From Pseudomonas denitrificans (nom. rej.) (GTDB lineage Bacteria; Pseudomonadota; Gammaproteobacteria; Pseudomonadales; Pseudomonadaceae), in contig NZ_CP043626.1 in the NCBI RefSeq assembly GCF_008807415.1, positions 186,001-250,000 on the forward strand: DNA of 64,000 nucleotides, in the 5' to 3' direction. The position numbers and the translations under genes were made by a program. This document shows positions 8,914 to 25,453 of this stretch, piece by piece. A model generated the notes under the pieces. The model worked only from the letters and a program-made list of their open reading frames with translations. It searched no databases and was not told the DNA's origin. Every line of letters starts with the position of its first letter. The stretch's first letter is position 1.

Positions 8914-8935
8914 GCATATTGGTATACCATAATAC
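8914..8935. promoter_or_regulatory. Operator site 1 (monooxygenase / chemoreceptor)
   Basis: The core TGGTATACCATAATAC (8920-8935) sits between two divergent starts, 136 nt from the monooxygenase and 48 nt from the chemoreceptor. Read toward the monooxygenase, TTGCAG and TATACC lie 16 bp apart, a possible promoter overlapping the site. It is one of six related sites. Confidence 0.8.
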
Positions 8936-8983
8936 GGGATGTCTGCAAGGCGTTTCTGCCGCGAGCAGACCAAGGGAGTAGGG

Positions 8984-10930
8984 ATGAACCTCAAACAAAA
9001 ACTGATCCTCGCCTTTTCCGCCATTGCCAGCCTGCCGGTGATCCTCGTCGCCGTGCTGGTGATCCTCAACCTGCGCGGCGAGGCGCGGGAAAGCTTCATC
9101 GATGGCAGCAGCCGGGAGATCCGCCAGGTCGAGAACGCCATGCAGATATTCTTCGACGGCATCACCCAGAACGTCGAATACCTCGCCGGCCATCCCCAAC
9201 TGATGGCCATCGACAGCAGCCTCAAGCAGTACATCGGCGCCGACGCCGCACAGCACCCGACCGGGGAGCTGGACAAGCGCGTGTTCGACCTCTTCACCGG
9301 CCTGGCGCAGAGCCACCCGGACTACGCCTACGTCTCCCTGGGCACCCGCGAGGGCGGCTACAGCTTCTGGCCGGGCGACGCCAAGCTGGCCAACTACGAC
9401 CCGCGCACCCGCCCCTGGTACCAGGCAGCCATGGCCCAGCCGGGCAAGACCCTGCGCACCAAAGCCTACTACTGGGCCGCGGACAAGGTGGTGCTGGTAA
9501 GCAGCGTGCGGACCTTTGCCAACCAGTTCGGCCCGCAGGGCGGGGTGGTCAATATCGACGTCTCGCTCAAGCGCCTGACCGATATCGTCAAGGCTATCCG
9601 CCTGGGCGAATCCGGCTACCTGATGCTGATGGAAGGCGACGGCACCATCCTGGTCGACCCGCACAACCCGGAGAACAACTTCAAACAGCTGGGCGAGCTG
9701 GGCGGCGATTTCCAGCGCCTGGCCAGTGCGCAGAAAGGGCTGGTGGAAGTGACTATCGGCGGCGAGCCCTACCTCGCCAACGTCTGGCCGTCCGAGACCC
9801 TGGGCTGGCGCTTCGTCGGGCTGATCAAGGAAAGCGAGGTGATGAGCAAGGCGACACGCCTGACCTGGGGCATCGCCCTGGTGGCGGTGATCATCGCGCT
9901 GGTGTTCGCCGGCCTCGGCTCGCTGTTCGCCGGGCTGGTGGTGCGCCCGGTGCGCGCGGTGGCAGCAGGCCTGGAAGGCATCGCCCAGGGCGACGGTGAT
10001 CTCACGGGCCGTCTTGCCGTGCGTGGCCGCGACGAGACGGCGCAACTGGCCGGCTGGTTCAACCAGTTCCTCGATGCGATCCGCCGGTTGGTGCAGAGCA
10101 TCGGCACCGCCGCCGGCAGCATCCACCAGAGCTCGGGCAGCAGCCGCGAAACCTCCCAGGCGCTGGCCGATACCGCCGCGCGTCAGCGTGAGGCGGTGGA
10201 CATGGTCTCCACCGCATTCAACGAGATGGTGATGACCGCCAACGAGGTCGCGCGCTCCTGCAGCCAGGCGGCGGAATCCGCCGACAGTGGCCAGCGCCAG
10301 GCCCACGACGGCCAGCAGCAGATCGACGAGGCGGTGGAAAGCGTCGGTCGCCTGAGCGAGGAGATCGCCCACTCGGCCGACGCCATGCGCCAGTTGGAGC
10401 AGGACAGCAACGACATCCAGTCGATCCTCGGCACCATCCGCTCCATCGCTGAGCAGACCAACCTGCTGGCACTCAACGCGGCCATCGAGGCGGCGCGGGC
10501 GGGCGACCAGGGCCGGGGTTTTGCCGTGGTGGCCGACGAGGTGCGCGCGCTGGCACGGCGCACGGCGGAATCCACCGGGGAGATCGACAACCTGCTCGGC
10601 ACCCTGGCCCGCCGCACCCATGACACCGGGCGACAGATGCAGTCGAGCCTGGAGGCGTCGCAGCGCACTGTCGGTTCGATCCGCGAGGCGCGCGCGTGCT
10701 TCGGGGCGATCCGCGAATCGGTGGACGTGATCCGCGACATGAACGCCCAGATCGCCACCGCCGCCGAGGAGCAGCACCAGGTGGCAGAGGAGATCAACCG
10801 GCACATCAGCCAGATCCACCGTGACGCCCAGGAAGTCGCTAGCCTGGCGGACGCCACGCGGGGCGATGCGCAGACCCTGAGCGGGCTGTCGGACGAGCTG
10901 AACCGCCTGGTGTCGCGGTTCAGGACTTGA
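8984..10930 (+). CDS. Methyl-accepting chemotaxis protein with dCache sensor
   Basis: This is a 648-residue chemoreceptor. Start ATG 8984 (MNLKQKLIL) follows AAGGGAG. Membrane segment 1 is near residues 8-28, the periplasmic double-Cache domain spans about 30-275, membrane segment 2 about 290-312, then HAMP and the cytoplasmic signalling hairpin with a well-conserved tip ([20 protein letters not shown]). The sensor has YDPRTRPWY (Tyr138, Arg143, Trp145, Tyr146), further Tyr near 162 and Asp192 in NIDVS. This matches the Y-x4-R-x-W-Y...Y...D pattern known for dCache domains that bind amino acids or related amines through their amino group. It is divergent from the monooxygenase with a shared operator, so I infer that it senses the pathway's substrate. 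There is no C-terminal CheR-docking pentapeptide. Confidence 0.92.
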
Positions 10931-10935
10931 TGCAA

Positions 10936-10967
10936 AAAGGGGCTCGCGAAGGCGGGCCCTTTTCTTT
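10936..10967 (+). terminator. Terminator of the dCache chemoreceptor gene
   Basis: An imperfect AAGGGGCTCGC / GCGGGCCCTT stem with a GAAG loop is followed by TTCTTT. Confidence 0.6.
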
Positions 10968-10989
10968 GGGGGCTGAGAAAGAGGCTTTC

Positions 10990-11037
10990 TGTAGGAGCGG
11001 GCCATGCCCGCGATCGCGCGCATGGCGCGCTCCTACA
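10990..11037. repeat. REP-like palindrome (family C)
   Basis: This 48-bp element, TGTAGGAGCGGGCC...GCGCGCTCCTACA, differs from 2467-2514 by very few bases. Shorter or degenerate relatives are near 1041, 14000, 19935, 21831, 26124, 40415 and 45866. Confidence 0.75.
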
Positions 11038-11051
11038 GTCCGCGCGCCGGG

Positions 11052-11221
11052 TCGATGGGTATAGCTGCGCTCCATGCCATCCTACGGACGTGCCTCATGG
11101 CAATCGTAGGGCGCATAACGCGCCAGCGTTATCCGCCGACGCAACGGCGGATAACCTGTTCCAGGTTATTCGCCCTACGGTCCTGATCGATGGGTATCGC
11201 TGCGCTCCACGCCATCCTACG
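11052..11221. repeat. Family A palindrome (11105-11179) flanked by two family B half-repeats
   Basis: Half copies of family B at 11052-11087 and 11187-11221 are direct repeats (GATGGGTAT(A/C)GCTGCGCTCC...CATCCTACG). Between them lies family A copy 3. The stretch 10968-11285 has no gene and is filled by these repeats and the REP element at 10990. Confidence 0.7.
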
Positions 11222-11285
11222 TTTACGTCTCATGGTGGCTCCGCCGCTGGCGGAGTTGGAGCGCATCAGGACCAATCAGCGGGCC

Positions 11286-11322
11286 AAAGAAAAGCCCCTT
11301 CTCACTCCCGCAAGAAGGGGCC
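11286..11322 (-). terminator. Terminator of flavin reductase A
   Basis: On the minus strand, GCCCCTTCT and AGAAGGGGC (11294-11302, 11313-11321) form a stem that is followed by TTTTCTTT. Confidence 0.75.
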
Positions 11323-11349
11323 TGCGCCGGACGGCGAAAGATCAGGCGG

Positions 11350-11835
11350 TCAGGCGAAAGCCTGCAGCGCGCCCATCTTTCCGCGGCAGTAAATCATCGG
11401 GGTGATCTGCTGGTCCGGCACGATCAGGTTCTTTACCGCGCCGACCAGGATGGCGTGGTCACCGCCTTCGTATTCGCGCCACAGCTCGCATTCGATGATG
11501 GCGGTGGCATTTTCCAGCAGCGGGTTGCCGCGTTCGCTCAGGGTCCATTCGATGCCCTGGGTCTTGTCCTTGCCCTTGCTGGCGAAGGCGTAGGCCTCGC
11601 CTTTCTGGTCGGCGGAGAGCAGGTGGATGGCGAAGTGCTTGCGGCGGATCAGCACCGGGTAGGAGTCGGAGCTGTAGTTGGGGCAGAACAGCACCAGCGC
11701 CGGGTCCATGGACAGGGAGCTGAAGGCACTCGCGGTGAGGCCGACCACCTGGCCATCGTCGTCCATCGTGGTGATGACGGTGACGCCGGACGGGAAGGAG
11801 CCCATGACTTGTTTGTAGGCAGCGTGGTCGATCAT
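11350..11835 (-). CDS. Flavin reductase family protein (copy A)
   Basis: This 161-residue protein belongs to the flavin reductase-like, FMN-binding split-barrel family (HpaC/RutF type), which reduces free FMN or FAD with NAD(P)H for a partner monooxygenase. Family marks are QVMGSFPSGVTVITT near the start, GLTASAFSSLSMDPALVLFC and FAIHLLSADQ, with GDHAILVGAVKNL toward the end. The start is ATG 11835, 51 nt downstream of the TGGTATACCGTAATAC operator; the upstream frame extension crosses that operator and is not coding. A close paralogue, copy B (21959-22447), shares roughly three quarters of its residues. It is divergent from the NCS1 permease. I infer that it feeds reduced flavin to the luciferase-like monooxygenase. 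Confidence 0.88.
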   Translation of the reverse strand: MIDHAAYKQVMGSFPSGVTVITTMDDDGQVVGLTASAFSSLSMDPALVLFCPNYSSDSYPVLIRRKHFAIHLLSADQKGEAYAFASKGKDKTQGIEWTLSERGNPLLENATAIIECELWREYEGGDHAILVGAVKNLIVPDQQITPMIYCRGKMGALQAFA

Positions 11836-11880
11836 TGCGAGTACCTGTCTTGTGAGCCGGCCATCGGGAGTGGTCGTTTC

Positions 11881-11902
11881 GTCTGATGGTATACCGTAAT
11901 AC
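11881..11902. promoter_or_regulatory. Operator site 2 (flavin reductase A)
   Basis: The core TGGTATACCGTAATAC (11887-11902) lies 51 nt upstream of flavin reductase A. The extended palindrome fits GTATnATGGTATACCATnATAC with two mismatches. Confidence 0.8.
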
Positions 11903-12055: not shown

Positions 12056-12083
12056 TTGCCTGGTATTTGGAATACCATAATAT
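12056..12083 (+). promoter_or_regulatory. Operator site 3 and promoter of the NCS1 permease
   Basis: The variant core TGGAATACCATAATAT (12068-12083) lies 86 nt upstream of the permease start. TTGCCT (12056-12061) and TAATAT (12078-12083) are 16 bp apart and could be the -35 and -10, so the operator would occupy the spacer and -10. The ABC importer promoter has the same arrangement. Confidence 0.7.
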
Positions 12084-12169
12084 TGCCGGCGTCACCGCAG
12101 CGCCGTTTCTGCCCGATTCAGGGCGCCGGATGACCTGACCTTACAAAGACAATAAGCAAGGCAAAAACG

Positions 12170-13566
12170 ATGTCCGATACTCCGCTGATCGAGAACCATA
12201 CCGTCGATTACGTGCCGCCGGCCGAGCGTCATGGGCGCTCCCGTGACCTGTTCACGCTGTGGTTCAGCACCAACATCGCACCGCTGCCGGTGGTCACCGG
12301 CGCGATGGCGGTGCAGGTGTTCCATCTCGACCTGCTCTGGGGGCTGATCGCCATTGTCCTGGGGCACATGTTCGGCGGCGTGTTCCTCGCCCTGGCGTCG
12401 GCGCAGGGCCCGCAGATGGGCATCCCGCAGATGGTCCAGAGCCGGGGCCAGTTCGGCCGTTACGGCGCCTTGCTGATCGTGTTCTTCACCGCACTGATCT
12501 ACGTCGGCTTCTTCATTTCCAACATCGTCCTGGCGGGCAAATCAATCCAGGGCCTGGTTCCGGCGACCCCGACGCCCGTGGCGATCATCCTCGGCGCACT
12601 CAGTGCCACCGCCATCGGCGTGATCGGCTATCGCTTCATCCACACCTCAACCGTATCGGCACCTGGGTGATGGGTGGCGCGCTGCTGCTGGGCTTCGTCA
12701 TCATGCTCGGCGGCGACCTGCCGGCGAACTTCCTCTCCCGCGGCGCCTTCAACCTGTCCGGCTTCCTGGCCACCCTGTGCCTGGGCATCATCTGGCAGAT
12801 CAGCTTCGCGCCCTACACCTCGGACTACTCGCGCTACCTGCCGGCCAGCGTCGGCATCGGCAAGCCGTTCCTGGCGACCTTCGCCGGCGCGGTGGCGGGC
12901 ACCAGCCTGTCGTTCAGCTTCGGCGCCGTCGCCGTGCTGGCGACCCCGGAGGGCACCGACGCGATGGTCGCGGTCAAGCAGGCCACCGGCATGTTCGGCC
13001 CGGTGCTGATGCTGCTGTTCCTGCTCAACATCATCAGCCACAACGCGCTGAATCTTTACGGCGCGGTGCTCTCCATCGTCACCTCGATCCAGACCTTCGC
13101 CGGCAGCTGGACGCCCAGCGTGCGGGTGCGCGTGGTGCTGTCTTCGGTGGTGCTGGCGGGCAGTTGCCTGATGGCGCTGGGCGCCTCGGCCAACTTCATC
13201 TCGCAGTTCATCGGCCTGATTCTGGCGATGCTGATCGTGCTGGTGCCCTGGGCCTCGATCAACCTGATCGACTTCTACCTGATCAAGCGTGGCCGCTACG
13301 ACATCAACTCGATCTTCCGCCGCGACGGTGGCGTGTACGGGCGCTTCAACCCGCACGCGATCATTGCCTACTTCATCGGCATCATCGTGCAGCTGCCGTT
13401 CGCCAATACCTCGCTGTTCGTCGGCCCGTACGCCAACTACATCGACGGGGTGGACCTGTCGTGGCTGGTCGGCCTGCTGGTGACCGTCCCGCTGTACTAC
13501 TGCCTGGCCACCCGCGGCCAGGCCCGCGAAGTCGGCCAGCCGGTGGCGCTGGGGATCGCGGAATAA
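12170..13566 (+). pseudogene. NCS1-family nucleobase/cation symporter, interrupted by a -1 frameshift
   Basis: The two frames together make a typical NCS1 permease (CodB/PurP/allantoin/thiamine type) of about 465 residues and 12 helices. Frame 1 (12170-12670) reads from MSDTPLIENHTVDYVPPAER through GAMAVQVFHLDLLWGL and GIPQMVQSRGQFGRYG to GYRFIHT. Frame 2 continues with LNRIGTWVMGGALLLG, FAPYTSDYSRYLP and PWASINLIDFYLIKRGRYD. One base is missing near 12645; adding a C in CACACCTC restores the reading. NCS1 carriers import nucleobases and related N-heterocycles with H+ or Na+, which hints at the cluster's substrate. If the break is real, the ABC system would be the only intact importer. Operator site 3 lies upstream. 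Confidence 0.85.
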
Positions 13567-14062: not shown

Positions 14063-14356
14063 TTACCCCTCGAACCCCTCGACGATGACGATATCCGCCT
14101 TCGCCACGCCCTGCCGGTGCGCGCAGGCTTCCTGGTATTCCGCCGAGCGGTAGCAGGCCACCGCCTGCTCATAGGAATCGAACTCGATCACCACGCTACG
14201 CTGAGGAGTAGGGCGCCCCTCGAGGGCCTCTGAACGGCCGCCACGGGCGAGGAACTTGCCGCCGTACCTGGCGAAGGCCGCCGGGGCGCGGCGGGTGTAT
14301 TCGCTGTATTGCTCCGGGTCGGTGATATCGACGTGAGCGATCCAGTAAGCCTTCAT
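14063..14356 (-). CDS. DUF1330 family protein
   Basis: The protein has 97 residues with the DUF1330 pattern: MKAYWIAHVDITDPEQYSEY at the start, GGKFLARGG in the middle, then SVVIEFDSYEQAVACYRSAE and YQEA. DUF1330 proteins are small ferredoxin-like dimeric alpha-beta barrels of the NIPSNAP/ABM type; some relatives act as small monooxygenases or isomerases, but the family has no settled activity. I placed the start at ATG 14356, with AGAGGTG just upstream; a GTG two codons earlier is possible. It is divergent from ribBX and shares operator site 4, 36 nt from each start, so it belongs to the regulon and probably acts on a pathway intermediate. Confidence 0.85.
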   Translation of the reverse strand: MKAYWIAHVDITDPEQYSEYTRRAPAAFARYGGKFLARGGRSEALEGRPTPQRSVVIEFDSYEQAVACYRSAEYQEACAHRQGVAKADIVIVEGFEG

Positions 14357-14392: not shown

Positions 14393-14414
14393 GTATTATG
14401 GTATACCAGATTTT
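14393..14414. promoter_or_regulatory. Operator site 4 (DUF1330 / ribBX)
   Basis: The core reads GTATTATGGTATACCA on the plus strand (14393-14408), the exact reverse complement of TGGTATACCATAATAC. It is midway between the DUF1330 and ribBX start codons. Confidence 0.82.
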
Positions 14415-14444: not shown

Positions 14445-15554
14445 ATGCCGTTCGACCGCATCGAAGACATCATCGAAGACTACCGCCAGGGCAAGATGGT
14501 GCTCCTGGTCGACGACGAAGACCGTGAAAACGAGGGCGACCTGCTGCTCGCTGCCGAGCGCTGCACGCCCGAGGCGATCAACTTCATGGCCCGTGAGGCG
14601 CGTGGGCTGATCTGCCTGACGCTGACCGACGAGCACTGCGCCCGCCTGGGCCTGGAGCAGATGGTGCCGGCCAACGGCAGCGCCTATTCCACCGCCTTCA
14701 CCGTGTCCATCGAGGCGGCCACCGGCGTTTCCACCGGCATCTCCGCCGCCGACCGCTCGCACACCGTGATCACCGCCGTGCAGCCGGGCGCCCGCGCCGA
14801 GGACCTGGTGCAGCCCGGCCACATCTTCCCCCTGCGCGCCCGCGAAGGCGGCGTGCTGACCCGCGCCGGCCACACCGAGGCGGGCTGTGACCTGGCGCGC
14901 CTGGCGGGGCTGACCCCGGCCTCGGTGATCGTCGAAGTCATGAACGACGATGGCAGCATGGCCCGGCGACCGGACCTGGAAGCCTTCGCCAAGCGCCACG
15001 GCATCCGCATCGGCACCATTGCCGACCTGATCCACTATCGCCTGAGCAACGAGCACACCGTCGCGCGCATCGGCGAGAGCGAGTTGCCCACCGTGCACGG
15101 CACCTTCCGCCTGGTCACCTACGAGGACCGCATCGAAGGCGGCGTGCACATGGCCATGGTGATGGGCGACATCAAGCGCGACGAGCCAACCCTGGTGCGC
15201 GTGCACGTGATCGACCCGCTGCGCGACCTGGTCGGCGCCGAGTACACCGGGCCGAAGAACTGGACCCTCTGGGCCGCCCTGCAGAAGGTCGCCGAGGTCG
15301 GTCACGGCGTGGTCGTGGTGCTGGCCAACAACGAATCCTCCCAGGCGCTATTGGCTCGCGTGCCGCAGCTCACCCAGGCGCCGCGGCAGTTCACCCGCTC
15401 GCAGTCGCGCATCTATTCCGAGGTCGGCACTGGCGCGCAGATCCTGCAGGACATCGGCGTCGGCAAGATCCGCCACCTGGGTGCGCCGCTGAAGTACGCC
15501 GGGCTCACCGGCTACGACCTGGAAGTGGTGGAGACGCTGCCTTTCGAAGGCTGA
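14445..15554 (+). CDS. ribBX: 3,4-dihydroxy-2-butanone-4-phosphate synthase with degenerate GTP cyclohydrolase II domain (RibBX type)
   Basis: The product has 369 residues. The N-terminal DHBP synthase domain is intact: [16 protein letters not shown] near residue 25, [20 protein letters not shown] near 130, and [14 protein letters not shown]. It converts ribulose 5-phosphate to the four-carbon precursor of riboflavin. The C-terminal domain follows the GTP cyclohydrolase II fold but lacks the zinc-binding cysteines and the SECLTGD-type motif; the matching region reads [20 protein letters not shown]. This is the RibBX arrangement common in Proteobacteria, where the second domain has lost GCHII activity. 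Its position behind operator site 4 and outside any rib operon suggests an extra copy that raises flavin supply when the FMN-dependent pathway is induced. Confidence 0.92.
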
Positions 15555-15711: not shown

Positions 15712-15739
15712 TTGCGGAAAGTTTGGAATACCATAATAT
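15712..15739 (+). promoter_or_regulatory. Operator site 5 and promoter of the ABC importer
   Basis: The core TGGAATACCATAATAT (15724-15739) is identical to site 3. TTGCGG (15712-15717) and TAATAT (15734-15739) are 16 bp apart as candidate -35 and -10. The site is 136 nt upstream of the binding-protein gene. Nothing else is evident in 15606-15875. Confidence 0.75.
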
Positions 15740-15875: not shown

Positions 15876-16901
15876 ATGGTGTTCAAAAAACGTGCGATCG
15901 CGGTCCTGACCGCTGCATTCCTCGGCGCAACCGGCACCGCTGCCTTCGGCGCCGACAGCCTCAGCTTCGTCAGCTGGGGTGGCACTACCCAGGATGCGCA
16001 GAAGCAGGCCTGGGCCGAACCCTTCAGCCAGTCCACCGGCATCCCCGTGGTGCAGGACGGTCCCACCGACTACGGCAAGCTCAAGGCCATGGTGGAGAGC
16101 GGCAACGTCCAGTGGGACGTGGTCGACGTCGAAGCCGACTTCGCCCTGCGCGCTGCCGCCGAAGGCCTGCTGGAACCCCTGGACTTCAACACCATCAAGC
16201 GCGACCGCATCGACCCGCGTTTCGTCTCCGACCACGGCGTCGGCTCCTTCTACTTCTCCTTCGTGCTCGGCTACAACCAGGGCAAGGTCGGCGGCAAGCA
16301 GCCGCAGGACTGGTCGGCGCTGTTCGACACCGCCACCTATCCGGGCAAGCGCGCGCTGTACAAGTGGCCGAGCCCCGGCGTGCTGGAACTGGCCCTGCTG
16401 GCCGACGGCGTGGCCAAGGACAAGCTCTACCCGCTGGACCTGAACCGCGCCTTCAAGAAGCTCGACACCATCAAGAAGGAAATCGTCTGGTGGGGCGGCG
16501 GCGCGCAGTCGCAGCAACTGCTGGCCTCCGGCGAGGCGACCCTCGGCCAGTTCTGGAACGGCCGCATCTACGCCCTGCAGCAGGACGGCGCGCCGGTGGG
16601 CGTGAGCTGGAAGCAGAACCTGGTCATGGCCGATTTCCTCGTGGTGCCCAAGGGCGCGAAGAACAAGGACGCGGCGATGAAGTTCCTGGCCAATTCCAGC
16701 AGCGCCAAGGGCCAGGCCGACTTCGCCAATCTGACTGCCTACGCCCCGGTGAACCTGGACAGCGTCGGCCAGCTCAAGGCTGACCTTGCGCCGAATCTGC
16801 CCACCGCCTACGCGCAGGAGCAGATCACCCTCGACTACGCCTACTGGGCGAAGAACGGCCCGGCGATCGCCGCACGGTGGAACGAATGGCTGGTCAAGTG
16901 A
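15876..16901 (+). CDS. ABC transporter substrate-binding protein, polyamine (PotD) type
   Basis: The protein has 341 residues and a clear Sec signal peptide (VFKKRAIAVLTAAFLGATGT, cleavage after AFG-A). The mature part starts DSLSFVSWGGTTQDAQKQAW and follows the extracellular solute-binding family 1/PotD pattern, with LKAMVESGNVQWDVVDVE, FNTIKRDRID and KNLVM-type lobes, and WNEWLVK at the end. It should deliver a small cationic or amine-like solute to the permeases. I chose ATG 15876 over ATG 15861 for its better spacing from GAGGG and because the signal peptide then starts normally. It is the first gene of a tight four-gene operon behind operator site 5. The ligand cannot be read from the sequence. 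Confidence 0.9.
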   Translation: MVFKKRAIAVLTAAFLGATGTAAFGADSLSFVSWGGTTQDAQKQAWAEPFSQSTGIPVVQDGPTDYGKLKAMVESGNVQWDVVDVEADFALRAAAEGLLEPLDFNTIKRDRIDPRFVSDHGVGSFYFSFVLGYNQGKVGGKQPQDWSALFDTATYPGKRALYKWPSPGVLELALLADGVAKDKLYPLDLNRAFKKLDTIKKEIVWWGGGAQSQQLLASGEATLGQFWNGRIYALQQDGAPVGVSWKQNLVMADFLVVPKGAKNKDAAMKFLANSSSAKGQADFANLTAYAPVNLDSVGQLKADLAPNLPTAYAQEQITLDYAYWAKNGPAIAARWNEWLVK

Positions 16902-16903
16902 AA

Positions 16904-17839: not shown

Positions 17840-18649
17840 ATGCTGCTCTCACCCAATGCCATGAGCCGGCGCATGCGCGTCGGCCTCTACCTCACGACCG
17901 GCACCATCGCGGCTTTCCTGCTGCTGCCCATCGTGTTCATCGTCCTGCTGTCGTTCGGCTCCTCGCAGTGGCTGGTGTTCCCGCCGCCGGGCTGGACGCT
18001 GAAGTGGTACGGCCAGTTCTTCTCCAACCCCGAGTGGATGAGCGCAGCGTTCGCCAGCCTGAAGGTGGCGATCCTCACCACCCTCTGCTCGGTCGCCCTG
18101 GGCCTGCCCACCGCCTTTGCCCTGGTGCGCGGCAAGTTCCCCGGCCGCGAGCTGCTCTACGGGCTGTTCACCCTGCCGATGATCGTGCCGCTGGTGATCA
18201 TCGCGGTGGCGGTGTACGCGCTGTTCCTCAAGCTCGGCTACACCGGCACGCTGTTCTCCTTCGTGGTCAGCCACGTGATAGTCGCGCTGCCGTTCACCAT
18301 CATCTCGATCATCAACTCGCTGAAGCTGTTCGACCAGTCCATCGAGGACGCCGCGGTGATCTGCGGGGCGTCGCGCCTGCAGGCGGTGATGAAGGTGACC
18401 TTCCCGGCGATCCGCCCCGGCATGGTCGCCGGCGCGCTGTTCGCCTTCCTGGTCTCCTGGGATGAGGTGGTGCTGAGCGTGATGATGGCCAGCCCGACCC
18501 TGCAGACCCTGCCCGTGAAAATGTGGACCACCCTGCGCCAGGACCTGACCCCGGTGATCGCCGTCGCTTCGACGCTGCTGATCGGCCTGTCGGTGCTGGT
18601 GATGGTGATCGCCGCCGCCCTGCGCCGGCGCAACGAAATCCGCGCCTGA
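17840..18649 (+). CDS. ABC transporter permease (PotC type)
   Basis: The second permease has 269 residues and six predicted helices. The EAA loop is SLKLFDQSIEDAAVICGASR, then LQAVMKVTFPAIRPGMVAG, typical of PotC-like subunits. It starts 3 nt after the first permease and is followed after 17 nt by the ATPase, so all four genes should be one transcript. It forms a heterodimer with the upstream permease. Confidence 0.92.
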   Translation: MLLSPNAMSRRMRVGLYLTTGTIAAFLLLPIVFIVLLSFGSSQWLVFPPPGWTLKWYGQFFSNPEWMSAAFASLKVAILTTLCSVALGLPTAFALVRGKFPGRELLYGLFTLPMIVPLVIIAVAVYALFLKLGYTGTLFSFVVSHVIVALPFTIISIINSLKLFDQSIEDAAVICGASRLQAVMKVTFPAIRPGMVAGALFAFLVSWDEVVLSVMMASPTLQTLPVKMWTTLRQDLTPVIAVASTLLIGLSVLVMVIAAALRRRNEIRA

Positions 18650-18666
18650 GCGCCGAGGTAAATGCC

Positions 18667-19809
18667 ATGAGTGCCGTGATCCAAGAATCCCGCGAGCAGA
18701 AGACCCTGGTCAGCCTGCGCAACCTGAACAAGTTCTATGGCGACTTCACCGCCGTGGACAACATTTCCCTCGACATCCAGGACGGCGAATTCCTCACCTT
18801 CCTCGGCTCCAGCGGCTCGGGCAAGAGCACCACGCTGTCGATGCTGGCCGGCTTCGAGACGCCCAGCAGTGGCGAAATCCTGGTCGAAGGCCAGTCGCTG
18901 GTGAACGTGCCGCCGCACAAGCGTGACATCGGCATGGTGTTCCAGCGCTACTCGCTGTTCCCGCATCTCTCGGTGCGCGACAACATCGGCTTCCCGCTGG
19001 ACATCCGCAAGCAGAAGGGCGCCGAGCGCGACCGTCGCGTCGACGCCATGCTCAAGCTGGTGCAGCTGGACAAGTTCGCCCACCGCCGCCCGGCGCAGCT
19101 TTCCGGCGGCCAGCAGCAGCGCGTCGCCATTGCCCGCGCGCTGGTCTACGAGCCGCGCATCCTGCTGATGGACGAACCCCTCGGCGCGCTGGACAAGAAA
19201 CTGCGCGAAGACCTGCAGGACGAGCTGCGCCACCTGCACCGTCGCCTGGGCATCACCATCGTCTACGTCACCCACGATCAGGAAGAGGCGATGCGCCTTT
19301 CCCAGCGCATCGCCATCTTCAGCCACGGCAAGATCGTCGGCCTGGGCAGCGGCTACGACCTCTACCAGAACCCGCCGAATGCCTTCGTGGCCTCGTTCCT
19401 CGGCAACTCCAACTTCCTCCGCGCCCGTGCCCACGGCAACGCCGCGGCGGAGTTCGAAGGCCGCGCATTGGCCATCCGCCCGACCGCGAACCTGCGCGAA
19501 GGCCAGGACATCCTGCTGATGGTGCGCCCGGAAAAAGCCCAGGTGCTGAGCCCTGCTCAAGCCGCTGCCACACCGCTGGCGGCAGGCTGGAACGAAATCC
19601 CGGCGAAAGTGGCCGAGACGGTGTTCCTCGGCGAGAGCCTGACCTGCAGCGTGGTCACCGCCAGCGGTGCGACCCTGACGCTGAAGGAGCTTTCCGGCAA
19701 CACCCAGCCGCTGGCCCCCGGCAGCGAAGTCCGCGTGCGCTGGGCCGCCGCCGATGCGTGCGTGTATGACCAGTGGAACGAGAGCGACCTGACCAAGGGC
19801 GTGCACTGA
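18667..19809 (+). CDS. ABC transporter ATP-binding protein (PotA type)
   Basis: The protein has 380 residues. The nucleotide-binding domain carries the Walker A motif GSSGSGKST, Q-loop FQRYSLFPHL, signature LSGGQQQRVAIARAL, Walker B ILLMDEP with LGALDKK, and the switch His in YVTHDQEEA. A C-terminal regulatory extension of about 130 residues (TOBE-like; VRPEKAQVL, then VFLGESLTCSV) is typical of polyamine-class importers. The start is ATG 18667 after GAGGTAAATGCC. It powers the importer encoded by the three preceding genes. A strong terminator follows and closes the operon. Confidence 0.94.
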   Translation: MSAVIQESREQKTLVSLRNLNKFYGDFTAVDNISLDIQDGEFLTFLGSSGSGKSTTLSMLAGFETPSSGEILVEGQSLVNVPPHKRDIGMVFQRYSLFPHLSVRDNIGFPLDIRKQKGAERDRRVDAMLKLVQLDKFAHRRPAQLSGGQQQRVAIARALVYEPRILLMDEPLGALDKKLREDLQDELRHLHRRLGITIVYVTHDQEEAMRLSQRIAIFSHGKIVGLGSGYDLYQNPPNAFVASFLGNSNFLRARAHGNAAAEFEGRALAIRPTANLREGQDILLMVRPEKAQVLSPAQAAATPLAAGWNEIPAKVAETVFLGESLTCSVVTASGATLTLKELSGNTQPLAPGSEVRVRWAAADACVYDQWNESDLTKGVH

Positions 19810-20002: not shown

Positions 20003-20566
20003 TCAACGAATGAAGTGCACCTTGCCGGTGTCGTCATTGCCCATGTAGATGCCGTAGACGCCGGCCTGGCGCTCCTCGATGTAGCGTTCGAGGATCTGCC
20101 GGATCGCCGGGTAGTAGATGCATTCCCAGGGGATATCTTCCGGGGCGAAGAATTTCACCTGCAGGGTCTCGGGGCCGTGCTCGCCGGTTTCCTCGATCAC
20201 GCTGGCGCGGAAGATGATGTAGACCTCGCTGATCTTCGGCACGCTGAAGATGGAGTAGGGCGAGACGATGTCGGCGCGCACGCCGGTCTCTTCCCAGACT
20301 TCGCGCAGGGCGGCCTGTTCAGTGGTTTCGCCGTTTTCCATGAAACCGGCCGGCAGCGTCCAGGTGCCTGGGCGCGGCGGGATGCCGCGCTGGCAGAGCA
20401 GGTACTTGCCGTCGCGCTCGATGATGCAGCCGGCAATGACCTTGGGGTTCTCGTAGTGGATGTAACCGCAGCCCGCGCAGATCAGGCGCTCATGGGTATC
20501 CCCCGGCGGGCACTGGCGGCTGAGGCCGCCACTGCCGCAAGCGGGACAGAAGCGCGGGGCGGGCAT
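20003..20566 (-). CDS. Nudix hydrolase with N-terminal zinc ribbon
   Basis: The protein has 187 residues. An N-terminal zinc ribbon (CPACGSGG, then CAGCGYIHYENPK) precedes a Nudix domain with a full Nudix box, GFMENGETTEQAALREVWEE continuing TGV, which binds the divalent metal. Proteins of this layout hydrolyse nucleoside diphosphate compounds such as NADH, ADP-ribose or FAD. Its gene lies 4 nt downstream of the GntR regulator and should be co-transcribed. In a flavin-heavy cluster, cleavage of FAD to FMN is an attractive idea but is only inference; a generic housekeeping role is equally possible. Confidence 0.88.
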   Translation of the reverse strand: MPAPRFCPACGSGGLSRQCPPGDTHERLICAGCGYIHYENPKVIAGCIIERDGKYLLCQRGIPPRPGTWTLPAGFMENGETTEQAALREVWEETGVRADIVSPYSIFSVPKISEVYIIFRASVIEETGEHGPETLQVKFFAPEDIPWECIYYPAIRQILERYIEERQAGVYGIYMGNDDTGKVHFIR

Positions 20567-20570: not shown

Positions 20571-21323
20571 TCAGCGGCCTATGCGCGGCTCTTTGAGCGC
20601 GATGGGGGTGGCGATGTCGCGCACGTTGCCGGCGCCGTCCTGCTTGGAGCGCAGGTAGTCCAGGGCGACCTTGGCGGCGGCGCGGACGTGGTCGACCGAG
20701 GCCTGGTGAGCCGCGACCGGGTCGCCGCTCTTGATCGCCTCGACCATGCGCTCCATTTCCTGGTTGCTGGCGGCGCGGCGGTTTTCCTGGGACACGGAGG
20801 TGGCCCGCAGGTAGCTGATGCGCGCCTGCAGCTGGCGCAGCTGGGTGGCGGCGGTGCGGTTGCCCGAGCCTTCGAGCAGCACGTCGTAGAAGCCCTGTAC
20901 CGATTCGATCACCTGCTGCAGCTCGCCGTCTTCCAGCGCCTGGCGGTTCTCTTCCAGCGCGCGCTCCAGGTTGCGGATGTCGCGGGCCTTGGCGTTCAAG
21001 GTGAAGAGCTGGACGATCAGGCCTTCGAGCACGCAGCGCAGCTCGTAGATGTCGACCGCGTCTTCCAGGGTGATGATGGCGACGCGCGGACCCTTGGCAT
21101 CGGCGAACTCCACCAGGCCCTCGGACTCCAGGTGGCGCAGTGCCTCGCGCACCGAAGTGCGGCTGACGCCCAGGCGATCGCACAGATCGCGCTCCACCAG
21201 GCGGTCGCCCGGCAGCAGCTGGAAGTTGAGGATGGCGCCGCGCAGCTTGTCGAGGACGATTTCGCGCAGGGTGACGGGGTTGCGATTGACCTTGAAGCTA
21301 TCGTCGAGTGGCAAGCGTTTCAT
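20571..21323 (-). CDS. GntR-family regulator with FCD domain; likely regulator of the catabolic cluster
   Basis: The protein has 250 residues. The N-terminal winged HTH (about 15-80) shows LREIVLDKLRGAILN, LLPGDRLVERDLCDRLGVSR and TSVREALRHLESEGLVEF. The C-terminal all-helical FCD domain (about 90-220) has VDIYELRCVLEGLIV and a HQASVDHVRAA segment carrying likely metal or ligand His residues. FCD regulators usually bind short inverted or tandem repeats; NanR, for example, binds GGTATA repeats. The six operators in this cluster have an inverted GGTATA core, so this is the best candidate to bind them, probably as a repressor released by a pathway metabolite. I see no copy of the operator in front of its own gene. 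The start is ATG 21323. Confidence 0.9.
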   Translation of the reverse strand: MKRLPLDDSFKVNRNPVTLREIVLDKLRGAILNFQLLPGDRLVERDLCDRLGVSRTSVREALRHLESEGLVEFADAKGPRVAIITLEDAVDIYELRCVLEGLIVQLFTLNAKARDIRNLERALEENRQALEDGELQQVIESVQGFYDVLLEGSGNRTAATQLRQLQARISYLRATSVSQENRRAASNQEMERMVEAIKSGDPVAAHQASVDHVRAAAKVALDYLRSKQDGAGNVRDIATPIALKEPRIGR

Positions 21324-21405
21324 GGGGTCCGCTCTGTGTTCTGGCTGTCCATAGGAAGAACGATGGAGCACCTTCGGGCGCTCCATCGTCAAGTCGGGCC
21401 AGCAA

Positions 21406-21807
21406 TCAACCACGTTCCTCGGCGTCGGCGTCGGCGTCGGCCTCGGCGAAGGCTTCGCGGGCGAGGCGGAAACTGTCCACCGCCGCGGGAACCCCGCAAT
21501 AGATGCCGACCTGCAGGAGGATCTCGCGGATCTGCTCGCGGGATAACCCGTTACGCAGAGCGCCGCGCACGTGCAGCTTGAGTTCGTGGGGGCGGTTGAG
21601 TGCCGAAATCATCGCCAAGTTTATCATGCTGCGTTCCTTGAGCGATAAGCCGTCCCGGCCCCAGACGTGGCCCCAGCAGTACTCGGTGACCATCTCCTGG
21701 AGCGGGCGGGTGAAGTCGTCGGCGTTCTGGATCGACTTGTTCACGTAGGCCTCGCCCAGCACCTGGGTGCGGATCGCCAGGCCTTTCTCGTATTTCTCGT
21801 TGCTCAT
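21406..21807 (-). CDS. Carboxymuconolactone decarboxylase (PcaC-like) family protein
   Basis: The protein has 133 residues and closely follows the PcaC pattern: KGLAIRTQVLGEAYVNKSI, FTRPLQEMVTEYCWGHVWGR, LKERSMINLAMISALNRPHE and GALRNGLSREQIREILLQVG, ending in YCGVPAAVDSFRLA. It lacks the CxxC of AhpD-type members, so a decarboxylase or small-molecule role is more likely than peroxide reduction. The tail ADADADAEE is encoded by a short GCCGAC tandem. The gene precedes the GntR regulator by 82 bp on the same strand. No operator copy is visible in front of it; it may be driven separately or by read-through. Confidence 0.87.
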   Translation of the reverse strand: MSNEKYEKGLAIRTQVLGEAYVNKSIQNADDFTRPLQEMVTEYCWGHVWGRDGLSLKERSMINLAMISALNRPHELKLHVRGALRNGLSREQIREILLQVGIYCGVPAAVDSFRLAREAFAEADADADAEERG

Positions 21808-21958: not shown

Positions 21959-22447
21959 TCAGCTGGCTATCTCCGGCAGCGCGCCGAGCTTGCCGCGGTG
22001 ATAGACCATCGGGGTGACCTCCTGCTCCGGCAGGATCAGGTTCTTCACCGCGCCGACGATGATCGCGTGATCACCGCCGTCGTACTCGCGCCACAGCTCG
22101 CATTCGATGATCGCGGTGGCTTTGGTCAGCAGCGGGTTGCCCAGCTCGCTCAGGCGCCACTCGATGCCCTTGGCCTTGTCCTGGCCCTTCTTGGCAAAGG
22201 CGTAGGCCTCGGCCTGCTGGTCGGAACACAGCAGGTGGATGGCGAACTGCTTGCTGTCACGCAGGACCGGGTAGGTGTCCGATTCGTAGTTGGGGCAGAA
22301 CAGCACCAGCGCCGGGTCGATCGACAGCGCGCTGAACGCGCTGGCGGTGATGCCGACGATCTTGCCGTCGGCGTCCAGGGTAGTGACCACGGTGACGCCG
22401 GACGGGAAGGAGCCCATCACTTCTTTGTAGATGCCAGGTTCGATCAT
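21959..22447 (-). CDS. Flavin reductase family protein (copy B)
   Basis: This 162-residue paralogue of copy A has the same landmarks: MGSFPSGVTVVTTLDADGK, GITASAFSALSIDPALVLFC and GDHAIIVGAVKNLILPE. It should provide reduced flavin to a monooxygenase. It is the last gene of the operon that begins with the AA_synth gene, 13 bp after the aldehyde dehydrogenase. Two near-duplicate reductases under the same operator type are unusual; they could serve different oxygenase steps or differ in FMN/FAD or NADH/NADPH preference. Confidence 0.88.
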   Translation of the reverse strand: MIEPGIYKEVMGSFPSGVTVVTTLDADGKIVGITASAFSALSIDPALVLFCPNYESDTYPVLRDSKQFAIHLLCSDQQAEAYAFAKKGQDKAKGIEWRLSELGNPLLTKATAIIECELWREYDGGDHAIIVGAVKNLILPEQEVTPMVYHRGKLGALPEIAS

Positions 22448-22460
22448 CTCGTCGCTCCTC

Positions 22461-23942
22461 TTAGCGCATCACGAAGGGATCGGGCATGGGCGCTGGCGAG
22501 AGGTTGATCCACACCGTCTTCAGCTCGGTGTAGGCCAGCACCGAATCGATGCCGCTCTCGCGGCCGTAGCCGCTGTTGTGGAAGCCGCCGATGGGCGCCA
22601 TGGCGGACACCGCGCGGTAGGTGTTGACCCAGATGATCCCGCTGCGAACGCCACGGGCCATGCGGTGAGCGCGGCCCAGGTCGCGGGTCCAGATGCCGGC
22701 GGCGAGGCCGAACTGGGAGTCGTTGGCCATCGCCAGCGCTTGCGCCTCGTCCTTGAAACGAATGACCGAGGCCACGGGGCCGAAGACTTCTTCCTGCATG
22801 ATCTTCATCGAGTTGCTGTCGCACTCGAACAGGGTCGGCTCGTAGAACCAGCCCTCGGAGTCGATCGACGGACGCTTGCCGCCCAGGCGCAGGCGGGCGC
22901 CTTCGGCCAGGGCGTCGGCCACCAGACCTTCGACCACTGCGAGCTGCTGCGCGGTGGCCATGGGGCCCATCTCGCTCTGTTCGTCCTGCGGGTTGCCGAT
23001 GCGGATGCGCTGGGCGCGTTCCACCAGGCGGGCGACGAACTCGTCGTAGATCTCGTCCTGCACCAGCAGGCGCGAACCGGCGACGCAGCTCTGTCCGGAG
23101 GCGGCGTAGATGCCGGCCACGGCGCCGTTGATGGCGCTGTCGAGGTCGGCGTCGGCGAAGATGATGTTGGGCGACTTGCCACCCAGCTCCAGCGACAGCT
23201 TGGCGAAGTTTTCCGCGCTGCTGCGCACCACGTGGCGCGCGGTGGCGGCGCCGCCGGTGAAGGCGATCTTGCGTACCAGCGGGTGGCGAGTGAGCGCAGC
23301 GCCAGTGCTCGGGCCGAAGCCGGTGACCACGTTGACCACCCCGGCCGGGAAGCCGGCTTCGGTGGCCAGGCGGGCCAGTTCGAGGATGGTTGCCGAGGCG
23401 TGTTCGGAAGGCTTGAGCACGATGGTGTTGCCGGCGGCCAGGGCCGGGGCCAGCTTGATCGCGGTCAGGTACAGCGGGCTGTTCCACGGGATGATCCCGG
23501 CGACCACGCCCAGCGGCTCGTGCACGGTGTAGGCGAACAGGTCGGGCTTATCCAGCGGCAGGGTGCCGCCTTCGAGCTTGTCGGCAAGGCCCGCGGTGTA
23601 GTGGAAGAACTCCGGCAGGTAGCCGACCTGGCCGCGGGTCTCGCGGATCAGCTTGCCGTTGTCGCGGCTTTCCAGCTGCGCCAGGTGTTCCTTGTTCTCG
23701 GCGATCAGATCGCCCAGGCGGCGCAGCAGCTTGCCGCGGGCAGTGGCGGTGAGGCCATGCCAGGCCGGGTCGTTGAAGGCGCGCTGGGCGGCCTGCACGG
23801 CGCGCTCGACGTCGGCTTCATCGGCATCGGGGAGTTCGGCCCAGGCTTGCGCGCGGGCGGGGTCGAGGCTCTCGAAGGTCTTGCCGGAAACAGCGTCGAC
23901 CCACTGGCCATCGATGAACATCTGGAAGCGTGCGAGGGTCAT
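22461..23942 (-). CDS. NAD(P)-dependent aldehyde dehydrogenase
   Basis: This 493-residue enzyme of the ALDH superfamily oxidises an aldehyde to its acid. Visible motifs are GIIPWNSPLYLTAIKLAPAL (cofactor and substrate region), FTGGAATARHV, the catalytic Glu in LSLELGGKSPNI, the catalytic Cys in ASGQSCVAGSR, and EVFGPVASVIRF. The length is standard. Its start overlaps the stop of the alpha/beta hydrolase gene by 4 bp, so the two should be translationally coupled. In the Rut and pyridine pathways an aldehyde or semialdehyde arises after ring opening, and this enzyme could do the matching step here. The substrate is not identified. Confidence 0.93.
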   Translation of the reverse strand: MTLARFQMFIDGQWVDAVSGKTFESLDPARAQAWAELPDADEADVERAVQAAQRAFNDPAWHGLTATARGKLLRRLGDLIAENKEHLAQLESRDNGKLIRETRGQVGYLPEFFHYTAGLADKLEGGTLPLDKPDLFAYTVHEPLGVVAGIIPWNSPLYLTAIKLAPALAAGNTIVLKPSEHASATILELARLATEAGFPAGVVNVVTGFGPSTGAALTRHPLVRKIAFTGGAATARHVVRSSAENFAKLSLELGGKSPNIIFADADLDSAINGAVAGIYAASGQSCVAGSRLLVQDEIYDEFVARLVERAQRIRIGNPQDEQSEMGPMATAQQLAVVEGLVADALAEGARLRLGGKRPSIDSEGWFYEPTLFECDSNSMKIMQEEVFGPVASVIRFKDEAQALAMANDSQFGLAAGIWTRDLGRAHRMARGVRSGIIWVNTYRAVSAMAPIGGFHNSGYGRESGIDSVLAYTELKTVWINLSPAPMPDPFVMR

Positions 23943-24772
23943 GCGACATTCCCCTGTACGTGATTCTTGGAAACCTGCGCCTGTTGCAGGAAGTCGAGCA
24001 GCATCTGGTTGACCAGCCGCGGCGACTCCACCGGCATCATGTGGCGCTGTTCGTCGAGCACCGTCACCTTGGCGCCCGGAATGCGTTCGGCGAGCTCGGT
24101 GGCCATCTTCGGCGTCGAGCCCGGGTCCAGCTCCCCGGTGGCGACCAGGGTCGGCACCTTGATGCTGCCCAGATCGTCCACGCGGTACATGTCCTGCGTG
24201 GCGAACAGGGTATAGGTAGTCAGATAGCCCTGCGGATCGTTGCTGGCAAGGGTCTGGCGGATCGCGGCGATCTGCGCCGGATTGGCGGCCTGGTACTCGC
24301 GGCTGAACCAGCGCGACAGGGCGGCCTCGGCGTTGGCGTCCGGGCCGTGTTCGGCGGCCTGGCGGGTCCGCTCGATCACGCCGGCGCGCTGTTCGGCGCT
24401 GCGGTTGAACACGCTGTTCAACACCACAAGGCCGTCCAGGCGCTCGGGGTAGTGCAGGGCGAAGGCCCGGGCCACCAGACCACCCATGGAGAAGCCGATG
24501 ACCGTGGCACTGGTCACGCCCAGGTGGTCGAGCAGCTCGCGCAGTTGGTCGGCGTAACCGACCAGTCCACAGTCCGGCTGCGGCAGCTGACTCGCGCCAT
24601 GGCCAAGCATGTCATAGGCGATGACCTGGAAATGCGGGGCCAGACCGACGATCTGGCCGCCCCACATTTCCTTGTTCAGGCCGACGCCGTGGATCAGTAC
24701 CACGGGGTGGCCCTGGCCGGTCGCCAGGTAACTGGTGCCGGCCGGTGTGCGTTCAGCGGTGAGCCGAATCAT
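23939..24772 (-). CDS. Alpha/beta-fold hydrolase
   Basis: The protein has 277 residues. The canonical alpha/beta hydrolase elements are present: oxyanion HGVGLNKEMW, nucleophile elbow GFSMGG, acid Asp in VATGELDPGS and catalytic His in DEQRHMMPVE. It has no signal peptide, so it is cytoplasmic. I chose ATG 24772 because AGGAG lies 7 nt upstream; it overlaps the stop of the AA_synth gene. Family members in similar oxygenase pathways (RutD, carbon-carbon bond hydrolases, enol-lactonases) cleave ring-opened intermediates or spontaneously formed toxic amides. The exact reaction is unknown. Confidence 0.9.
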   Translation of the reverse strand: MIRLTAERTPAGTSYLATGQGHPVVLIHGVGLNKEMWGGQIVGLAPHFQVIAYDMLGHGASQLPQPDCGLVGYADQLRELLDHLGVTSATVIGFSMGGLVARAFALHYPERLDGLVVLNSVFNRSAEQRAGVIERTRQAAEHGPDANAEAALSRWFSREYQAANPAQIAAIRQTLASNDPQGYLTTYTLFATQDMYRVDDLGSIKVPTLVATGELDPGSTPKMATELAERIPGAKVTVLDEQRHMMPVESPRLVNQMLLDFLQQAQVSKNHVQGNVA

Positions 24773-24795
24773 GGAGCGCTCCTGCACGGTGTGGA

Positions 24796-25386
24796 TCACT
24801 GAGCCTGTTCGGCGGCCAGTTCTTCCAGGTCGATGTAACGGTTGCCGATGCGCGGGTGCAGACGGCCACCGTCGGCGGCGCCCAGGACCACGACGATCTC
24901 GTCGGCGCGCGGGGCGTCTTCGATCTGCATTTCCAGGGTGATGTAGTGCGAACGCAGGCCTTCGTCGTCCTTGTGCATCATCGGGATCTGGATCGAGGTG
25001 CCCGGGCCGCCGCGCTTGTTGGTGAAGCTCAGGTAGCTCTTGGCGTCCACGGCCTGGCGGTAGTGGTTGCCGAAACGCAGGGTGTGGATGACGGCGGAGG
25101 CGTGCTCGATCTCGCCATCGGCGCCCACTACGGCAGCTTTGCCGTAGGCCTGGATCTTGTCAGCGCCACCGATGGCGGCGGTCAGGCGCTCGACCATCAG
25201 CGCGCCCAGCTCGGAGCAGTGGGCCTTGATCTCGGGCTTGAGGTCTTCGACGAAGCCGCGACCGGCCCACGGGTTCTTGATCACCACGGCCAGGCCGACC
25301 ATGGTCACCGGGGTGTCGGTGGCCTTGCCGGCTTCGATGAAGGTCTGCTCGCTGTAGGTGACGATCTTGCGAATCTCGAAACTCAT
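24796..25386 (-). CDS. AA_synth family protein (BCM-like fold, DUF1185)
   Basis: The protein has 196 residues. It opens MSFEIRKIVTYSEQTFIEAG and contains VVIKNPWAGRGFVEDL, AYGKAAVVGADGEIEHASAV and GPGTSIQIPMMHKDDEG, the pattern of the family called amino acid synthesis protein. That family has a Bacillus chorismate mutase-like trimeric fold and no proven reaction. The fold is shared with the YjgF/RutC proteins, which remove reactive enamine or aminoacrylate intermediates, so an analogous clean-up or amidohydrolase role here is conceivable. It is the first gene of the operon, 51 nt downstream of operator site 6. The related operon gene content is not one I can match to a named pathway. Confidence 0.85.
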   Translation of the reverse strand: MSFEIRKIVTYSEQTFIEAGKATDTPVTMVGLAVVIKNPWAGRGFVEDLKPEIKAHCSELGALMVERLTAAIGGADKIQAYGKAAVVGADGEIEHASAVIHTLRFGNHYRQAVDAKSYLSFTNKRGGPGTSIQIPMMHKDDEGLRSHYITLEMQIEDAPRADEIVVVLGAADGGRLHPRIGNRYIDLEELAAEQAQ

Positions 25387-25431
25387 GGGTCGCTCCAGTT
25401 GTGACTTCGGCTGGGTTGGGGAAGGGATTCG

Positions 25432-25453
25432 GTATCATGGTATACCATAATAC
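25432..25453. promoter_or_regulatory. Operator site 6 (AA_synth operon), the most symmetric copy
   Basis: The sequence reads GTATCATGGTATACCATAATAC, a 22-bp palindrome with a single mismatched pair, and contains the core TGGTATACCATAATAC (25438-25453). It lies 51 nt upstream of the AA_synth start, the same spacing as at flavin reductase A. It defines the full operator as GTATnATGGTATACCATnATAC. Confidence 0.85.

Follow-up and report, generated by a model that had tools for sequence, protein, structure and literature searches.

A putative GntR-controlled regulon of the trigonelline type with six operator sites in Pseudomonas denitrificans (nom. rej.)

In Acinetobacter baylyi ADP1, trigonelline (N-methylnicotinate) is reportedly degraded by the products of a tgn cluster, for which the single pathway steps are said to be described, and trigonelline catabolism is reported to be encoded on a symbiotic plasmid in Sinorhizobium meliloti. 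According to passages in published work, the pyridine ring is opened by TgnA and TgnB, trigonelline supports better growth of Ruegeria pomeroyi than homarine does (PMC8269262), TgnF is a member of the AA_synth family with a stimulating effect on TgnE (PMC7913881), and the wild type of S. meliloti grows on trigonelline while a strain without pSymA does not (PMC4207669). Here, we analyze a 64,000-nucleotide stretch of the Pseudomonas denitrificans (nom. rej.) genome (contig NZ_CP043626.1, positions 186,001 to 250,000; hereafter the window), in which genes for enzymes of this type are found together with genes for two importers, a chemoreceptor and a RibBX protein, and in which the same 16-mer occurs in front of six transcription units. 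We regard it as on balance probable that these genes constitute a catabolic regulon controlled by a single repressor, an FCD-type GntR protein, and that the substrate is trigonelline or a close pyridinium betaine.

The operator and its association with a GntR gene

A pattern scan of both strands of the window recovered the 16-mer exactly at the six positions and on the strands given in a first-pass annotation made from the sequence alone, and each site resides upstream of a cluster gene as had been claimed (Table 1). With up to three mismatches allowed on both strands, eleven matches were obtained, i.e. the six exact sites, opposite-strand overlaps of four of them and one at 40473 on the minus strand, while shuffled sequence gave 0.11 matches on average and one at most. 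The assertion that the 64 kb hold no further full copy is borne out by this, as the next match has three mismatches. The latter place (40473-40488) features a GGTATACC core with poor flanks and is the only GGTATACC in the window beyond the six sites. The genome-wide scan for copies at unrelated genes that had been proposed did not uncover many of them: the genome, a single contig of 6.88 Mb, contains nine places with at most two mismatches. Six of them are the exact sites, one is the site at 25438 read in reverse (one mismatch) and two are located at 4,701,550 and 5,826,178 (two mismatches each). The reversed pattern, used as a control over the same 6.88 Mb at the same tolerance, gave none.

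The core of the motif is a 10-base palindrome, TGGTATACCA, at three of the sites and a one-base variant thereof, TGGAATACCA or TGGTATACCG, at the other three. The 22-mer at 25432-25453, which had already been recognized as a palindrome, is self-complementary at 20 of its 22 positions; the remaining five 22-mers reach only 10 to 16 of 22, and the motif in general is composed of a strong half and a weaker half. On the other side of the site at 25438 lies a small open reading frame (25650-25937, plus strand) that could be a further controlled unit; no Pfam match was obtained for the stretch from 25476 to 25937.

In the family Pseudomonadaceae, the exact motif is present in 81 of 298 genomes (reversed control: none) and a GntR ortholog (E<=1e-60) in the identical set of 81; a Fisher value for this overlap ignores relatedness and is not to be read as a probability. 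Occurrence is patchy in the window's own genus, where 15 of 25 genomes contain both. Every one of the best 80 of 218 related GntR loci carries at least one exact site. Together with the six in the window, the 278 sites in these loci make up a set of 284, and in 282 cases a cluster-gene homolog (identity of 35% or higher) lies no further than 600 bp from the site and reads away from it; the other two are both situated at locus ends. The invariant columns of the motif are circular in this set since the sites were picked by the pattern. A relaxed scan of the 80 loci yielded 374 core matches, consisting of the 278 full sites, 10 near sites with six of seven arm positions and 86 weaker ones.

In three genomes the cluster is divided. 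In genome G199 (loci L114/L115), a distance of about 1.07 Mb on a single contig separates the DUF1330-RibBX-ABC part from the GntR-oxygenase part, both of which have sites. The sites are also kept in G284, with about 118 kb between the parts, and in G294, with the parts on different contigs. In the latter two genomes, the site in front of the ABC importer genes is exact and that between DUF1330 and RibBX matches in the core only. Sites at unlinked cluster parts argue for one regulator that acts on dispersed promoters. A regulon defined by the six-site operator is thus strongly supported, and the FCD-type GntR protein, the candidate put forward in the first-pass annotation, is likely its regulator in view of the identical distribution of motif and gntR and of the persistence of the sites at unlinked parts.

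The operator is not restricted to Pseudomonas. Thirteen loci from other organisms were examined, to which a 4-kb locus from genome G002 (L131) was added as a fourteenth (loci L097-L105 stand outside this tally). The core or a close variant precedes the homologous operon in ten of the thirteen. Exact TGGTATACCA is found in seven (L092, L095, L096, L106, L108, L110 and L112) and close variants in L107, L111 and L113; L107 and L111 both stem from pSymA of S. meliloti, where the core has diverged to TGGCATACCA. When ranked by the best 22-base match over the whole locus, the operator before the homologous operon comes first in nine of the thirteen loci (in L111 it is tied with a site before gntR). 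It is second in L108 from a Burkholderia multivorans plasmid, where the best match precedes the second reductase. Two operator-like sites are located in that locus (5284-5347) before the second flavin reductase gene and the ABC operon, and one of them is the GGAATACC variant also present at the Pseudomonas ABC promoter. Locus L110 from Acinetobacter has a second site before its gene for succinate-semialdehyde dehydrogenase (SSADH). From the distribution of these sequences, the operator seems to be older than the cluster in Pseudomonas. In L107 (S. meliloti AK57), the gntR and AA_synth genes are unannotated and lie in pieces in different frames with transposases nearby; decay of the cluster may be under way in AK57.

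Cluster genes and their counterparts in trigonelline clusters

Pfam and NCBIfam scans served for the identification of the genes, with 16 cluster proteins compared against Pfam and ABC permease 2 placed by its homologs only (Table 1). Locus L110, from plasmid NZ_CP094644 of Acinetobacter sp. PK01, contains annotated tgnA, tgnB and tgnC genes along with genes for a DUF1330 protein, GntR, AA_synth, a hydrolase, a cytosine permease, a hypothetical protein, SSADH and a carboxymuconolactone decarboxylase family protein (CMD). The window proteins resemble their counterparts in this locus with identities of 52% (DUF1330), 37% (GntR), 56% (AA_synth), 53% (aldehyde dehydrogenase), 61 and 56% (the two permease pieces) and 79% (CMD). 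The two-component flavin oxygenase that is a feature of tgn clusters is represented by a luciferase-like monooxygenase (LLM; 50% to TgnB) and flavin reductase FR1 (39% to TgnA), and both a TgnC-type aldehyde dehydrogenase and a TgnF-type (PF06684) protein are encoded. The alpha/beta hydrolase occupies what we take to be the TgnD position. The Nudix protein is homologous to the C-terminal domain of TgnA-like reductases (E 8e-17 for a Burkholderia copy, 4.7e-10 for annotated TgnA) and Pseudomonas therefore has the TgnA-type protein in separate parts.

The cluster had initially been described as flavin-centred, which is apt given its flavin reductases, LLM oxygenase, RibBX and Nudix protein, and also as apparently undescribed. 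The latter is not supported for the pathway, as the enzyme set is of the tgn type known from Acinetobacter, judging by homology to L110 and by passages in PMC8269262 and PMC7913881. The list of controlled units stood up in part: the genes named were recovered by Pfam and NCBIfam, CMD, Nudix and gntR were missing from it as likely units, and the NCS1 permease lies in two frames. Among 26 loci compared, the frame change in the permease gene (near 12670) is seen in the window only, the other 25 having one frame, and the gene is probably broken or affected by a sequencing error. Two other described systems were considered and rejected. For the homarine pathway, which yields N-methylglutamate, this was done on the basis of its product and of one citing passage; an HcdD-type coumarin cluster, judging by passages in the literature, has the AA_synth protein in common and an otherwise unrelated gene set.

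Table 1. Operator sites and genes of the cluster; coordinates refer to the window
Feature	Coordinates	Strand	Remarks
Operator 1	8914..8935	+	16-mer at 8920; between LLM oxygenase (-) and chemoreceptor (+); site kept beside LLM/MCP in relatives
Operator 2	11881..11902	+	16-mer at 11887, TGGTATACCGTAATAC; upstream of FR1 (-)
Operator 3	12062..12083	+	16-mer at 12068, TGGAATACCATAATAT; upstream of NCS1 permease
Operator 4	14393..14414	-	16-mer at 14393; between DUF1330 (-) and RibBX (+)
Operator 5	15718..15739	+	16-mer at 15724, TGGAATACCATAATAT; upstream of ABC importer operon
Operator 6	25432..25453	+	16-mer at 25438; best palindrome; upstream of AA_synth operon (-)
LLM flavin-dependent monooxygenase, TgnB-like	7740..8783	-	PF00296; 50-51% to annotated TgnB
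dCache_1 chemoreceptor (MCP)	8984..10930	+	PF02743, PF00015
Flavin reductase FR1	11350..11835	-	PF01613; start inferred by analogy to FR2; 73% to FR2, 39% to N-terminal half of TgnA
NCS1-type (cytosine/purine family) permease	12170..13566	+	PF02133 on first piece; second piece without Pfam match
DUF1330 protein	14063..14356	-	PF07045; 52-57% to L106, L108 and L110 counterparts
RibBX (DHBP synthase and GTP-cyclohydrolase-II-like C-terminal half)	14445..15554	+	PF00926, PF00925; NCBIfam PRK12485 above cutoff
ABC importer solute-binding protein (SBP)	15876..16901	+	Very close relative of Pf622
ABC permease 1	16877..17836	+	PF00528; extent of open reading frame, start not settled
ABC permease 2	17840..18649	+	Placed by homologs: 57-60% to permease beside tgn-type genes in L096, L107, L108, L111 and L113
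ABC ATPase	18523..19809	+	PF00005, TOBE_2; extent of open reading frame, true start probably near 18667
Nudix hydrolase with Zn ribbon	20003..20566	-	Homologous to C-terminal domain of TgnA-like reductases
FCD-type GntR regulator	20571..21413	-	PF00392, PF07729; true start probably near 21323
CMD	21406..21807	-	PF02627; 79% to L110 counterpart
Flavin reductase FR2	21959..22447	-	PF01613
Aldehyde dehydrogenase, TgnC-like	22461..23942	-	53% to annotated tgnC in L110
Alpha/beta hydrolase, presumed TgnD position	23939..24799	-	35% to L110 counterpart, next to AA_synth
AA_synth (PF06684) protein, TgnF-like	24796..25386	-	56% to L110 counterpart

Many relatives of the GntR protein align only from about residue 27, and the homolog of ABC permease 2 in L096 is annotated as an ABC permease. 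RibBX contains four cysteines, all of them at residues 40-148 of 369. GTP cyclohydrolase II requires catalytic zinc cysteines; the C-terminal half of RibBX has none, so that the protein probably supplies the RibB step alone. An FMN (flavin mononucleotide) riboswitch before ribBX was not among the Rfam gathering matches in the region from 7000 to 27000. Between the permease and DUF1330 genes (13800-13922, minus strand), Rfam detects a TwoAYGGAY cis-regulatory RNA (56.8 bits, above gathering), the target of which is not obvious. A second MCP gene (26751-28373, minus strand; 38% identity of the product to the regulon receptor) is found near the AA_synth end here and in loci L012 and L013.

Similar clusters reside on plasmids in Leisingera, Mesorhizobium, S. 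meliloti (pSymA), Burkholderia multivorans, Pantoea, Agrobacterium and Arthrobacter. The Arthrobacter dokdonellae plasmid locus (L094) features genes for riboflavin kinase, Nudix, a tautomerase, two AA_synth proteins and a fusion of SnoaL and flavin reductase. At the level of the order, the window LLM was detected in 4 of 194 genomes (E<=1e-90), and in the genus to which genome G418 belongs, the source of loci L097-L105, in 11 of 48 (E<=1e-80).

Mechanism, substrate and competing explanations

In the mechanism we propose, GntR would act as a repressor rather than as an activator and would bind the TGGTATACCA-centred operator (or its variants), which extends into an imperfect palindrome of 22 bp. 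Six promoters would be bound in this way, among them the one that drives the operon ending in gntR itself. The AA_synth operon appears to continue through gntR and autoregulation is therefore expected. Promoter geometry was derived from the unique sites of each class in loci L010-L089 and the window. The sites in front of the ABC importer genes have TTG at -11 and TGGAATACCATAATAT in 61 of 61 unique cases, with a consensus in which the core is flanked by CTTGCA and TAATAT. TTG is found at the same place in 95% of 21 unique NCS1 permease sites, where TAATAT is again the right arm. TTG and TAATAT are a likely -35/-10 pair with about 16 bases in between, enclosing the operator core in both classes. 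A mirrored TTG (CAA at +25) is present in 86% of 85 unique AA_synth sites and, at +25 or +27, in 92% of 24 unique FR1 and 100% of 9 unique LLM sites; these three classes read in the opposite direction and the core overlaps the expected -10. At most promoters, the core either sits between the likely -35 and -10 elements or overlaps them. This would allow the bound repressor to block RNA polymerase, which is the simplest reading of the geometry, and an inducer, either the substrate or an early product, would release it. The chemoreceptor and the two importers would then serve substrate sensing and uptake, the two-component flavin-dependent oxygenase would open the pyridinium ring of trigonelline or a close pyridinium betaine, aldehyde dehydrogenase and hydrolase would carry the product towards succinate semialdehyde, and RibBX and Nudix may provide flavin.

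A number of observations weigh against a trigonelline regulon governed by this GntR protein. The 64-kb window does not contain a gene for SSADH (TgnE). A relative (62%) is encoded elsewhere in the same genome, and six of 18 relative loci (L120, L123, L125, L025, L026 and L029), three of which had been preselected for a second aldehyde dehydrogenase, have an SSADH gene beside that for CMD (67-72% to the L110 copy). Identity of the hydrolase to its L110 counterpart amounts to 35%. For the use of released methylamine, the genome has no close N-methylglutamate dehydrogenase, the nearest homolog of the corresponding L110 subunit reaching 36%. A matching operator was found neither in L094 (Arthrobacter) nor in L109 (Agrobacterium, a stretch without annotated GntR), nor in the 4 kb of L093, a stretch that stops short of the upstream region of the operon. 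The 4-kb locus L131 likewise has none, its best match reaching 16 of 22 positions with a different core. The 58 unique sites between DUF1330 and RibBX show no consistent TTG (at best 48% at -16). As an LLM oxygenase gene (48-52% to annotated TgnB) is also present in all 81 motif-containing genomes, co-occurrence alone does not single out GntR. Further points concern the phylogeny of the oxygenase and the proteins that would handle the solute.

The oxygenase tree was calculated for 32 chosen rows, including 19 of the best 120 of 2684 relatives and 12 locus proteins, and rooted at midpoint, from which no sister relation of its oxygenase clades follows. Annotated TgnB and the pSymA oxygenases are placed in one of these (support 100/95). 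The window LLM falls outside of it into a separate clade (98/99), together with proteins of further Pseudomonas, of Actinobacteria and of a small number of other gammaproteobacteria. The four proteins among the best 120 of 2684 relatives that the Joint Genome Institute (JGI) names trigonelline monooxygenase are nevertheless all placed in the clade of the window protein. It is conceivable, albeit rather doubtful in our view, that the same GntR regulon and operator serve an oxygenase clade acting on a different nitrogen heterocycle, such as another N-methyl- or carboxy-pyridinium or a pyridine derivative. Beyond the separate clade, this is consistent with LLM and hydrolase having diverged further from their L110 counterparts than the permease pieces, CMD and the SSADH of relatives. 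On the other hand, NCS1 permease and SBP are 52-67% and 60-63% identical, respectively, to proteins encoded beside genes of the TgnB clade, suggesting the same or a very similar solute. The two clades were never encountered together in the 298 genomes, 81 having one and a single genome (G002, 67% to annotated TgnB) the other, a weak argument as it relies on one TgnB-clade case. Genome G028 has an additional oxygenase copy (43%).

The SBP matches Pf622 (PDB 6dgv) with an E value of 4.5e-178 and also 9d57, and the sensor domain of the MCP matches PDB 6mni (E 3.1e-105), which we take to be PscC of P. syringae. In the relevant passages, Pf622 is given as the protein in the gamma-aminobutyric acid (GABA) sensor iGABASnFR (PMC12999171) and is said in a review to interact with GABA only (PMC6819510), and PscC of pathovar tomato is stated to bind GABA and L-Pro (PMC9452764). 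A regulon for GABA or a GABA-like amino acid, with the ring-opening reading being wrong, could be deduced from these matches, and we consider it unlikely. The Pfam scan of 16 cluster proteins, which did not include ABC permease 2, revealed no member of an aminotransferase family such as would be expected for GABA transaminase. The oxygenase, the reductases and the hydrolase are not known to take part in GABA breakdown. In addition, the words 'trigonelline' and 'betaine' do not appear in the main text of the PscC paper (PMC9452764), so that a ligand of this kind may have gone unnoticed in its screen. The natural ligand is either an unscreened pyridinium betaine or the solute differs. Going further, and tentatively, one may imagine an old TGGTATACCA/GntR circuit for pyridinium-betaine catabolism, common to gamma-, beta- and alphaproteobacteria, that spread to six promoters in Pseudomonas and gathered chemotaxis, two importers and FMN supply; Pf622-like SBP and PscC-like receptor may then sense pyridinium betaines, with GABA as a look-alike.

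It is very improbable that the 16-mer belongs to promoters of an alternative sigma factor or is a site of a global regulator: the right arm of the 16-mer, TAATAY, is plausible as the -10 of the ABC and NCS1 promoters, but the core is palindromic, the arm is kept at the AA_synth and FR1 sites where TTG implies transcription in the opposite direction (a pure -10 element was rejected in part for this reason), the genome scan found no copies elsewhere, motif and GntR share the same 81 genomes, and the operator stands beside GntR and AA_synth in other proteobacterial classes. Recent duplications or functionless mobile repeats, for which nothing but the high similarity of the copies speaks, can practically be dismissed, and chance or repeat origin is rejected on account of the shuffles, the genome scan, flanks that differ between promoters outside the common 16-mer, and variants that some promoters keep as their own, e.g. 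TGGAATACCATAATAT at the ABC promoter and TGGTATACCATAATAC in 58 of 58 unique exact sites between DUF1330 and RibBX.

Comparison with described systems

The pathway belongs to a known type. What appears to be new is that one operator serves several promoters and is spread across classes, and that flavin and chemotaxis genes have been added; a description of this operator or of a multi-promoter regulon was not found among the matches listed (at most 20 per search) for the open-licence PMC literature. The operator offers a DNA signature from which a catabolic regulon of the plant-betaine type can be predicted for other proteobacteria as well as for 81 of the 298 Pseudomonadaceae sampled. Ring-opening catabolism would be linked to chemotaxis and riboflavin supply through a single likely repressor. 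If trigonelline were indeed bound by SBP and chemoreceptor, a widely used GABA-sensor scaffold would need rethinking as regards its natural ligand, as would a receptor studied in leaf infection. So far, Pf622/iGABASnFR has been characterized with GABA and PscC with GABA and L-Pro; the window pair is close to them in sequence and is encoded among tgn-type genes.

The regulator has the same FCD and winged-helix domains as FadR/FCD-type GntR repressors, for which TnGTatACnA is reportedly the operator. Core TGGTATACCA fits this consensus, and the window operator differs from it by its extended conserved arm, TAATAY. RibBX proteins are said to have been described earlier, and that of the window features the same DHBP synthase and cysteine-free cyclohydrolase-II-like half; it differs by its place beside a catabolic operator. 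On pSymA of S. meliloti, presumably in the published trigonelline cluster of this organism, a homologous set comprising GntR, AA_synth, hydrolase, reductase, LLM, aldehyde dehydrogenase and ABC importer is present behind the diverged core, and no homolog of RibBX or the chemoreceptor was found in the 19-kb stretches.

With the tgn cluster of Acinetobacter, as represented by the PK01 plasmid, the window has LLM, flavin reductase, aldehyde dehydrogenase, alpha/beta hydrolase, AA_synth and GntR in common and, in addition, DUF1330, a cytosine-type permease, CMD and TGGTATACCA before AA_synth. SSADH is part of the tgn cluster and of some relatives in Pseudomonas but not of the window. Unlike in the tgn cluster, the oxygenase of the window belongs to a separate clade and the TgnA-type reductase is split into reductases and Nudix. 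Beyond the tgn cluster, the window adds RibBX, a chemoreceptor, an ABC importer and six sites in separate promoters.

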